Below, piece after piece: positions 44,227 through 46,950 of a stretch of DNA of 47,691 nt; position 1 is the stretch's first letter; every line of letters starts with the position of its first letter. This DNA comes from Gemmatimonadota bacterium (lineage in GTDB: Bacteria; Gemmatimonadota; Gemmatimonadetes; Gemmatimonadales; Gemmatimonadaceae): assembly GCA_028287345.1 (NCBI GenBank), contig JAQBPV010000152.1, forward strand, positions 1-47,691. The letters run 5' to 3'. The notes beneath the pieces are model-generated. The model made no database searches, had not been told where the DNA came from, and saw nothing but the letters and a program-made list of their open reading frames with translations. The position numbers were made by a program, and so were the translations under genes.

Positions 44227-45543
44227 CTACTCGATCAGCCCAATCACCACGTCCATGACGTTGGTGCCGGTGAAGCGCCTGGGAATTAGCGCGCCAGCGG
44301 CGCCGAGTACGGCGTGTGATTCGTGGCGTTGAAGCGCGACGTCAGGGTCGCGTCCGCTCTGGCGGATCTGCTCCCAGATCGTCGAGTCGGCGAACGCGCC
44401 GGCGGCGTCGGTGGTGCCGTCGCGCCCGTCCGTGCCGGCCGCGAGGATCGTGATCCGCCGCGCGCCGTCGCCATGCCTGGACAATTGGCGCGACGCTGCG
44501 AGCGCCAACTCCTGACACCGCCCGCCACTTGGCGGCGCTTCGGACGAGAGCGCATGCGCGCCTTTGCCGGCGGGAGCCGCGGCGCTGTGGAGCTGCACAG
44601 TGGTTTCTCCACCCCAGACCATGCAACCGGTGCGGCCCTGCTGCGCGCGCCGCAGCAACGCGTCGGCAATCTGTGCGCCCGACGTCGCGGCATCGCCTTG
44701 CAGTGGCGCCGCAATCGTTTCGACGTCGAGGGAGATCTGCCGAGCGTGTGCGGCGACGGCGTCGAGCGCGAGACGGTTGCTGCCGATGACGCGCGTGGAG
44801 ACATGTGCGAACGCAGGGTGCGCCGGCTTGGGAGTCTCGGGGATGACGCCGCGCGCCACGCCGGTGAGATACTCGCGCATCGCTGGTGCGATACGCGTGA
44901 GCACGTTCGATTCCCTTAAGACGTCAATGACCTGCTTGACCGTCCATGAGTCGGGTGTGCAGGGACCGGAGCCGATGTCGGCAGGATCGTCGCCGAGGAC
45001 ATCGCTCATGACGTAGACGTGCGTGCGCGCTGGGGCAAGCGAAAGCGCCATCCGTCCCGCGCCCCACCGCGTGAAGCGCTTGCGCACGGCGTTCATCCGC
45101 CGGATGTCGAGCCCTGAGCCGAGCAGCAGCTCGAACAGCTGGCCGAGGTCCGACTCCGCCATTCCGCGGAGCGGTGCGGCGATGAGGCTGGTGACGCCAC
45201 CGCTGAGAAGGACGATGGCGACGTCATCGCCGCGCATGCCGGTGGCCATGTCGCCAATGCGCTGCGCCGCCGTGAACGAATGCCGGCCGGGTAGGGGGTG
45301 GTCGCCCTGGAGCACTCCGACGGTCGCGTACGGCGACGCCATCGGCTCCGGAGAGACGATGACGCCGCCAGCGATGGCGATCAGAGAGCGCTGCAGTGTG
45401 GCCGCCGCTGCGGCGGCCATCGGATGTGCGGCCTTCCCGAGCGCGTAGAGCCAGAGCCGCTGCCCGGGACGTGCCTGGAAGTCGCGAAGTGCCGCAGACG
45501 TCACCGGGCCGGGAGCCGCCCCGGCGATGGCTGCGTCGTACAA
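44227..45543 (-). CDS. Glycerate 2-kinase (DUF4147/MOFRL family)
   Basis: 438 residues from a TTG at 45543; the true start may lie a few codons upstream. LLSGGVTSLIAAPLRGM, MSDVLGDDPADIGSGPCTPDSW and GTDGRDGTTDAAGAF are diagnostic, and the MOFRL end has FTGTNVMDVVIG. It phosphorylates glycerate to 2-phosphoglycerate. The region GGETTVQLHS...GKGAHALSS...GGRCQELALA carries about 13 extra residues between the two halves of the usual GKGxGGRNQE motif, and the motif Asn is Cys here. It follows the peroxiredoxin gene by 72 nt. Confidence 0.88.
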   Translation of the reverse strand: MYDAAIAGAAPGPVTSAALRDFQARPGQRLWLYALGKAAHPMAAAAAATLQRSLIAIAGGVIVSPEPMASPYATVGVLQGDHPLPGRHSFTAAQRIGDMATGMRGDDVAIVLLSGGVTSLIAAPLRGMAESDLGQLFELLLGSGLDIRRMNAVRKRFTRWGAGRMALSLAPARTHVYVMSDVLGDDPADIGSGPCTPDSWTVKQVIDVLRESNVLTRIAPAMREYLTGVARGVIPETPKPAHPAFAHVSTRVIGSNRLALDAVAAHARQISLDVETIAAPLQGDAATSGAQIADALLRRAQQGRTGCMVWGGETTVQLHSAAAPAGKGAHALSSEAPPSGGRCQELALAASRQLSRHGDGARRITILAAGTDGRDGTTDAAGAFADSTIWEQIRQSGRDPDVALQRHESHAVLGAAGALIPRRFTGTNVMDVVIGLIE

Positions 45544-45615
45544 CTCAGTGAGACGCGTGCGACCAGTTGTCGTGGACTGTGTCAGACGAAGAGTCGCGTG
45601 AGAGTTCGTGCTGGG

Positions 45616-46197
45616 TCAGCGAGGTACGAGCGTCTGCTTCACTGCTGCTTCGAGGTCATCGTACGACTGCTGCGCCAACACGTTGAACGGCTGCATGCGC
45701 TTCACGATCCTGCCGGCCGGATCGATGACGAACAGCGAACGGTCGTCCAACTTGCCGCTGATCGCACCGTACAGCTTTCCGACCTTCTGATCGACGTCAC
45801 TCGCATAGAGCACGGGCGTCTGCTGGTCGCGCGCCCACGATGCGAGTGTGGTATCGGGATCGACGCTGACGCCGAGCACGATGACGTTCTTGCCGTTGTT
45901 GAAGAGCTTGGCGTACTGATCACGGTACGCCTCCATTTGAATGGTTCAGCCCTTTGTCCGCGCCTTGAAGAAGAAGGCGAGGACGACCGTCTTGCCTTTG
46001 TAGTCCGAGAGCTTGATGGAGTCTCTCAGGACACCGTAGCGCGTCGCGGCAGGGAGCGTGAAATCGGGCGCGAGGGCACCCACATCCGGCGACACGTACG
46101 TCGGCGCGGCTGGCGGCTGCTGGGCCTGTGCCGCTGCTGCCGTCGCGCAGATCGCGAAGAGGGCAGTGGCGATCAGGCGCTTCGAGGGATGGTGCAT
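45616..46197 (-). CDS. Selenocysteine-containing exported peroxiredoxin (in-frame TGA read as Sec)
   Basis: One continuous frame of 193 residues is interrupted by a single TGA (45948-45946) at codon 84. The context is FFFKARTKG-TGA-TIQMEAYRDQY; in cysteine homologues the family has KG-Cys-T at this place (peroxidatic residue). The N-terminal part has a signal peptide (about residues 1-25, ALFAICATAAAAQAQ) and APDFTLPAATRYG; the C-terminal part has the thioredoxin-fold NVIVLGVSVDPDTTLASWARDQQTPVLYASDVDQKVGKLYG. The mature protein has no other Cys, so only Sec can give it a redox centre. A SECIS-like hairpin lies right after. GGAGG lies four nt before ATG 46197. Confidence 0.82.
45910..45931 (-). 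promoter_or_regulatory. Bacterial SECIS-like element
   Basis: In the mRNA, GGCGUAC (45931-45925) pairs perfectly with GUACGCC (45916-45910), and the 8-nt loop is CGUGAUCA. The loop begins 21 nt after the UGA and has G at its second position, inside the published limits for bacterial SECIS (loop 3-14 nt, distance 16-37 nt, G in the first two loop bases). It lies within the coding sequence, as bacterial SECIS elements do. Confidence 0.75.
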
Positions 46198-46224
46198 GCG
46201 ACCTCCGGGTATGGCGAACGCGGC

Positions 46225-46253
46225 ATAATGCGCGGGGGTGCTTCCGCACGCAA
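46225..46253 (-). promoter_or_regulatory. Promoter of the selenoperoxiredoxin gene
   Basis: On the minus strand TTGCGT (46253-46248), a 17-nt spacer and CATTAT (46230-46225) precede GGAGG and the ATG at 46197. The 5' leader would be about 20 nt. Confidence 0.55.
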
Positions 46254-46391
46254 TGCCGGAGCAAGAGTCGGCCCGAAGGACGATGAACTTCTCGACGTCT
46301 GAGCCCGCTGTAGAAAAAAGAGGACGGCATTCTCTCGCGATTCGGACGAAAACCGACGCAAAGTCGCTCTATTGGCTGTTAAGTGGTGGTC

Positions 46392-46407
46392 TGGCACCTG
46401 CTTTGTT
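46392..46407 (+). promoter_or_regulatory. Possible sigma-54-type promoter
   Basis: TGGCAC-N5-TTGTT resembles the -24/-12 consensus TGGCAC-N5-TTGCA, with one mismatch in the -12 GC. It lies about 45 nt before the ATG at 46450. Chance occurrence is possible. Confidence 0.3.
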
Positions 46408-46449
46408 AGGGCACGTCAGACAGTCTCTTTTTCCGCTTTTGGAGGTCGG

Positions 46450-46950
46450 ATGCGCATACTCGTCGTCAATTGGTCGTTGCTGGGTCTGGCGTTCGTCGGT
46501 GCCTGCAGCCGGGGCACCGATGCACGTCCGGACGACGCGCTAAAGAACGATCTCGCGCTCGCGGCCCAGGTTCAGCCCTATCAGGCGCAGCAGTTCGTGT
46601 CGCCGAATGAGCAGCAGATGGGCGCCAACGGCGCGGCGCAACAGTACAATGCTGTTGGCCGCGCACCGCAGCCCGTCTACCGCAAGCCGGCGCCGGTGTA
46701 TCGCGCGCCGGCACGCCGCACTGCATCACGCTCGAGTGGATCGAGTGGATCGCAGGGCACGTACTATCCGCCCGCGCCGCAGGAGCCCGTTCGCCACACC
46801 GGCCGCGACGCCGCCATTGGAGCCGCAGCAGGCGCTGTGATTGGTGCAACGACGAGCCGCGACAAGGTGAAGGGTGGCCTGATCGGGGCAGCCGCAGGCG
46901 GTATCCTTGGCGGCATCATCGGCCACACGGTGGATGTGCAGAAGCCATAG
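46450..46950 (+). CDS. Glycine-zipper lipoprotein
   Basis: 166 residues. The lipoprotein signal ends AFVGAC; a Gln/Pro/Ala/Tyr-rich mature N-terminus (YQAQQFVSPNEQQ, VYRKPAPVYRAPARR) is followed by Ser-rich SRSSGSSGSQ and a C-terminal two-helix glycine zipper: GRDAAIGAAAGAVIGATTSRDKVKGGLIGAAAGGILGGIIGHTVD. Such YMGG/2TM-type domains insert in membranes or oligomerise. GGAGG precedes the ATG by five nt. It is divergent from the selenoperoxiredoxin and ends in its own terminator. Confidence 0.8.
   Translation: MRILVVNWSLLGLAFVGACSRGTDARPDDALKNDLALAAQVQPYQAQQFVSPNEQQMGANGAAQQYNAVGRAPQPVYRKPAPVYRAPARRTASRSSGSSGSQGTYYPPAPQEPVRHTGRDAAIGAAAGAVIGATTSRDKVKGGLIGAAAGGILGGIIGHTVDVQKP

Follow-up and report, generated by a model that had tools for sequence, protein, structure and literature searches.

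A predicted selenocysteine-containing peroxiredoxin-like gene with a conserved SECIS-like hairpin in Gemmatimonadota

PrxU of Eubacterium acidaminophilum is a selenocysteine (Sec) peroxiredoxin (Sohling, 2001, as cited in passages of PMC13188914), and Sec-containing peroxiredoxins of PF00578 with a TxxU motif are tabulated in the same 2026 review. Passages of a 2016 survey give 91 Sec-containing peroxiredoxins in 78 organisms (PMC5029168). The bSECIS criteria in the Fig. 2 legend of the review are a stem of 4-16 bp, a loop of 3-9 nt, a spacing of 16-37 nt, a G in the first two loop positions and an MFE of -7.5 kcal/mol or lower (PMC13188914). In passages of a study of trench sediments, selA, selB and selD are reported from about half of the genomes, and Gemmatimonadota are named among the transcribed genomes and not linked to the sel genes (PMC8938466). 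A word search of the main texts found no 'Gemmatimonad' in PMC13188914 and no 'Gemmatimon' in PMC5029168, the passages of PMC3281104, PMC8938466 and PMC8318568 contain nothing that we recognised as a report of such a protein, and no report of a Sec peroxiredoxin of this kind in Gemmatimonadota was recognised in the open-licence papers searched.

The window, which is the whole stretch of 47,691 nt analysed here (contig JAQBPV010000152.1, assembly GCA_028287345.1, Gemmatimonadota bacterium), shows a gene on its minus strand (Table 1) that, judged from sequence comparison, is almost certainly a genuine selenoprotein gene. The frame starts at an ATG at 46197, has a single internal TGA and ends at a TGA at 45618-45616. 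A preliminary description had placed this single TGA at the peroxidatic Cys of an otherwise complete AhpC/TSA protein and had warned that the locus is easily mis-called as two genes. Both statements are right: the codon is read directly in the frame, the translation matches PF00578 (94 bits against a gathering score of 26, with C put for U), and translation table 11 gives two ORFs, one of 83 aa (45946-46197) and one of 106 aa (45616-45936), the latter beginning at an ATG four codons past the internal TGA. The Shine-Dalgarno sequence that it had named is likewise visible, and the promoter of its own that it had assigned to the gene was not recovered, as a scan of 45400-46500 with a sigma-70 model, a weak test in a GC-rich genome, found 0 sigma-70-like sites and no terminator. 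A homologue of the downstream DUF4147/MOFRL neighbour, presumably glycerate-kinase-like, is close by in 17 of 33 loci, and 11 of the 33 have a glycine-zipper protein close by; in these loci neither shows an evident functional link to the gene, and the DUF4147/MOFRL protein is probably not part of the Sec mechanism.

Table 1. Position of the predicted Sec peroxiredoxin-like gene, its elements and its downstream neighbour in the window.
Feature	Coordinates	Strand	Remarks
Predicted Sec peroxiredoxin-like gene	46197-45616	minus	193 codons + stop; PF00578 E 8.6e-27, TGA read as residue
In-frame TGA, codon 84, peroxidatic position, predicted Sec	45948-45946	minus	read from sequence; homologous sites TGA 90, TGC/TGT 28 (n=118)
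SECIS-like hairpin, 7-bp stem, 8-nt loop CGUGAUCA	45910-45931	minus	arms 45931-45925 and 45916-45910; loop 45924-45917
Shine-Dalgarno-like GGAGG	46202-46206	minus	4 nt upstream of ATG, from sequence
Signal-peptide-like residues 1-25	46123-46197	minus	KR, hydrophobic stretch, AQA|Q cleavage judged by eye
Downstream neighbour, DUF4147/MOFRL protein	44227-45543	minus	homologue close by in 17/33 loci

The hairpin downstream of the TGA (GGCGTAC / CGTGATCA / GTACGCC) is as first described, with 7 bp, an 8-nt loop, 21 nt between the TGA and the loop and a G at loop position 2, and folds with an MFE of -11.8 kcal/mol over 40 nt (z -2.45). The E. coli fdhF SECIS has a bulged U, which is absent from the window hairpin, and an Rfam scan of 45500-46300 gave one weak and irrelevant match below the gathering score. 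Among random synonymous recodings of the same peptide, 42% form the inner six pairs and 16% all seven, as pairing between its own codons is favoured in AYRDQYA; therefore, the hairpin in one sequence is weak evidence, and it is the conservation that counts. When 395 genomes of the phylum were searched with the protein, 312 gave matches at E 1e-20; among the matches listed, best-scoring first, a single internal TGA is present in 121 genomes and absent from 28 rows. The codon alignment contains 118 homologous sites: all 28 listed stop-less rows and 90 TGA sites, which are the best 30 and others spread over families from the rows of the 121 listed TGA genomes. L049-L051 (the same genes as L021, L025 and L022) and L052 (motif not found) were left out. 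The wider contig scan matched three close relatives and one Weeksellaceae protein, 29% identical.

The column of the internal TGA, whose comparison among homologues had been proposed as a check, contains TGA or Cys in all 118 aligned sites (90 and 28, respectively). The inner six pairs of the hairpin form in 89 of the 90 TGA sites and in one of the 28 Cys sites, all seven pairs form in 77/90 and 0/28, respectively, and the loop CGTGATCA is present in 85 of the 90 TGA sites. The comparison thus gave no support to the pattern that the preliminary description had named as evidence to the contrary, a stop in relatives and no SECIS conservation: the hairpin is kept with TGA and not with Cys. The same division is found in the codons of the hairpin, where Arg is CGT in 88/90 TGA forms versus 4/28 Cys forms, Asp is GAT in 88/90 versus 9/28, and the first Tyr is TAC in 90/90 versus 12/28. 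In the TGA forms the mean top-codon share is 0.992 in the hairpin, whereas 40 other conserved residues of these genes average 0.644 and all stay below 0.97; in the Cys forms the mean share is 0.690 in the hairpin (3 residues) and 0.717 elsewhere (38 residues). The outermost pair of the 90 TGA sites is G-C in 53, U-A in 15 and C-G in 10, and fails in 12, 11 of which fall outside the order of the window; it is formed in 78/90, whereas 20,000 shuffles gave 40 on average and never more than 54, and its covariation is seen in 2 and 3 supported independent pairs, which is not significant. The exact pattern TGA-N15-GCGTACCGTGATCAGTACGC is present in 221/395 genomes, 167/285 good genomes and 78/138 genera, and the reversed-pattern control gave 0 among the rows listed. 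The exact pattern is not universal, being found in 0/15 genomes of family f6 and 0/6 of family f11, and TGA forms that deviate from it exist (for example in G048, G070 and G094). One genome (G264) holds two exact TGA patterns.

A TGA that is a nonsense mutation or a sequencing error in a Cys peroxiredoxin gene, for which it could be said that TGC is one change from TGA and that Cys homologues exist, is scarcely conceivable with these data, since the frame past the TGA is open and conserved, the freezing of synonymous sites is confined to the hairpin, and the same codon in so many independent genomes (90/118 sites and, with the hairpin, 221/395 genomes) excludes a base error in practice. Two separate proteins, with UGA terminating the first, the second starting at the ATG four codons later and the halves cooperating, are very improbable. 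All 90 TGA sites show a possible start codon at this distance (ATG in 88 and GTG in two), and the 106-aa ORF begins at it; however, the Met is also present in 27 of the 28 Cys forms, which need no restart, and is better explained as a residue of the protein, while a two-protein arrangement leaves unexplained the Cys at the position of the UGA, the TGA-specific hairpin and the link to selB.

The assembly with the window, 6.08 Mb in 543 contigs with a completeness of 91.83% and a contamination of 5.57%, contains selA (518 bits), selB (349 bits, summed over pieces) and selD (369 bits), all above curated cut-offs and each on a different contig, and a tRNA-Sec with anticodon tca beside selD. The complete set that the preliminary description had proposed to look for is, therefore, in the same assembly. 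The G+C of the machinery stretches fetched is 0.64-0.67, versus 0.647 for the window, and selB is also found in six of seven other genomes of the same genus. A second, identical 95-nt tRNA-Sec is located on another contig and may be an assembly overlap, both copies (L012:5-99 and L013:29-123) being near contig ends. Reading of the UGA as an amino acid other than Sec would fit with the identity of the residue being predicted from sequence, but is highly unlikely: the fetched loci show only a stop or Cys (the search looked for these two at the column, and its looser fallback did not come into play), the Sec machinery is complete, and the gene's own terminator is also TGA, so that UGA is not generally read through here. 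Decoding of UGA as Sec by the host, as originally suggested, appears well supported by the machinery, the TGA-specific conservation of the hairpin and the Cys homologues.

Across the phylum, selB (E <= 1e-60) is present in 283 of 395 genomes: 206 of the 221 with the exact pattern versus 77 of the 174 without it (Fisher p 5e-28, not corrected for kinship), some of the 174 having a deviating TGA form. The 15 pattern-bearing genomes without selB at this cut-off were looked up for selA with the exclusion of G122 and G194. Fourteen of the listed TGA genomes have no selB at the strict cut-off; 11 of these contain selA, including a fragment below the cut-off in G353, and the remaining three, without selA, are 80-82% complete. 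At a looser cut-off, one of these 14 (G144) shows selB in pieces above the cut-off and the others only sub-cut-off matches, many of which are, in our reading, of EF-Tu length. A TGA form and selA with no selB match over the cut-off are found in G002, G160, G186 and others, G002 being 99% complete; missing contigs or a divergent SelB are candidate readings for the genomes with selA. The listed Cys-form genomes without the pattern contain selB in three of 17 (G006, G081 and G375), and selA is in none of the 14 that have no selB. The association with selB suggests that the protein may rank among the chief users of the phylum's Sec machinery.

The genome of the window also shows a second TGA-bearing gene (L144:430-1878; G000:C223:34192-35637, minus strand), encoding a thioredoxin-fold protein with NHL repeats, presumably NHLRC2-like, in which U-I-N-C replaces C-I-N-C with the TGA at the first Cys. 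One TGA is present in all six listed full-length copies of the same genus (G000, G196, G253, G369, G364 and G071). The eight TGA forms read have in common CCGC-AGTT-GCGG with the loop 25 nt past the TGA, and the three TGC forms read are without it, one of them keeping the stem. Both this hairpin and that of the peroxiredoxin-like gene show GU at loop positions 2-3. By sequence this is a probable second selenoprotein gene, and its same TGA and hairpin logic corroborates the Sec reading of the peroxiredoxin-like gene. The word "NHL" is absent from the searched text of the review PMC13188914, and a literature search on NHL repeats and selenoproteins apparently gave nothing on such a protein.

The protein is named peroxiredoxin-like here because the Pro of the strict signature PxxxTxx(C/U) is replaced, Thr and the redox position being kept; it is filed under AhpC/TSA and is expected to work like a peroxiredoxin. 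In the window the position of this Pro, codon 77 (45967-45969), is Phe. By established peroxiredoxin chemistry we take Thr81, Sec84 and Arg153 to be the expected catalytic set. The best solved sequence relatives are 2ywn/4g2e (E 9e-17), 3hjp and 3drn, and an AlphaFold2 model from a four-row alignment (pLDDT 53) is too poor to use. A selenoprotein with a thiol-disulfide, reductase or signalling role instead of peroxide reduction is unlikely, although appreciably less so than the alternatives above. PF00578 also contains non-peroxidases, and the signature Pro is replaced in 72 of the 90 Sec forms, including Phe in 42 and Tyr in 25. Peroxide reduction is favoured by the residue three positions before Sec, which is Thr in 87 and Ser in three of the 90 Sec forms, by the Arg of an R-x-x-F-V segment farther on, which at least 90% of the sites conserve, by the solved relatives, nearly all of whose entries are named peroxiredoxin or thiol peroxidase, and by the missing second Cys for CxxC chemistry, as in all 118 homologous sites Cys is absent from the 45 residues ahead of the redox position and from all residues after it. 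The only other Cys of the window protein is Cys17, inside the signal-peptide-like N terminus, so that the predicted mature protein has no other Cys, as had been stated in the preliminary description. Features of the signal peptide that it had proposed are likewise visible by eye, and a crude rule of hydrophobicity and AxA holds in 105 of the 118 homologous sites, one of the rest being without upstream sequence. L074 and L079 show a possible lipobox Cys farther upstream, and their products may be lipoproteins.

In the mechanism that we favour for the peroxiredoxin-like gene, SelB with Sec-tRNA-Sec would bind the hairpin at 45931-45910 and UGA 84 would be decoded as Sec. The product would be exported by its signal peptide and would work in the envelope as a peroxidase with a single Sec, belonging to AhpC/TSA and closest to PrxQ/BCP. 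Sec84 would attack peroxides, and Thr81 and Arg153 are its expected partners. There is no resolving Cys, and therefore Sec84 would be re-reduced by an external thiol or redox protein.

In the protein tree of the 118 sequences, the Cys label needs six changes, at least five of which are forced by supported branches, and a single Cys clade is rejected (p-AU 0.0008). Several orders of the class share the homologous hairpin, from which we infer that the Sec form is probably ancestral in these lineages and that Sec was repeatedly replaced by Cys. Tandem Sec and Cys copies are found in eight loci of one genus (L093, L094, L095, L096, L097, L100, L101 and L111). Both forms are also on one contig in G092, of this same genus, and in G183, of another genus. 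All 28 Cys forms have the signature Pro, which stands seven residues ahead of the redox position, versus 18 of the 90 Sec forms; when kinship is taken into account, about three of five supported independent pairs agree with the association of Pro and Cys and none opposes it, which is not significant (median p 0.25). These data can be joined in one tentative reading, to which we give slightly less than an even chance: an exported peroxidase with one Sec would be retained by many Gemmatimonadota, Sec having eased the constraint on an active-site Pro that is otherwise near-universal in peroxiredoxins, the SECIS would be frozen at 20 nt in most Sec-form genera because the SelB of the phylum reads sequence and not shape alone, and Sec would have been replaced repeatedly by Cys, usually accompanied by Pro at the signature position and by loss of the machinery for Sec. 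If this is true, the phylum would be a natural experiment on why Sec is retained.

This gene is of more than routine interest for its near-frozen SECIS, its lost Pro and the repeated replacement of Sec by Cys. Under the standard code it is split into two short ORFs, and an enzyme that probably serves peroxide defence in the envelope and occurs in much of the phylum can thus be missed or mis-annotated. Gemmatimonadota are common in soils, and metagenomes could be searched for selenium use with the near-invariant hairpin as a ready query. Natural variants with Sec and with Cys are numerous and include the tandem pairs, so that the contribution of Sec can be tested directly.

Sec peroxiredoxins are an already known class. 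The protein of the window belongs to AhpC/TSA and, by prediction, to the selenoproteins, and falls outside PrxU, the PrxQ equivalog and the strict signature. It is near the PrxQ/BCP peroxiredoxins and not a member of them: with this group (PRK09437, NF006960; 2ywn/4g2e, 3hjp, 3drn), whose models we take to describe Cys enzymes, it shares the best NCBIfam match by E-value (2e-15) and the solved relatives, and it differs in its score of 57.1 bits against a cut-off of 140, in its probable export and in having no second Cys. Against NF040737 (peroxi_PrxU), which presumably stands for the E. acidaminophilum PrxU, it reaches 55.7 bits with a cut-off of 270, and it also differs from PrxU in its signal-peptide-like N terminus, in the absence of another Cys from the predicted mature form, in the replaced signature Pro and in its Gemmatimonadota host. 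Common to both are the AhpC/TSA family, the redox residue at the peroxidatic position and the TxxU motif, as given for PrxU in passages of PMC13188914. With the Sec peroxiredoxins tabulated in the parts of PMC13188914 and PMC5029168 used here it shares the broad family and the Sec position, and it departs from the motif PxxxTxxU of the former in showing Phe for P. Compared with the bSECIS consensus in the legend and passages of PMC13188914, the window hairpin lies within all the ranges given, with its 7-bp stem, 8-nt loop, 21-nt spacing, MFE of -11.8 kcal/mol, below -7.5, and a G in the first two loop positions (the second) followed by U; it differs in a loop that is not clearly of the N1..N2 paired sub-pattern and in a primary sequence that is near-invariant in Gemmatimonadota, in 78 of the 138 genera searched.
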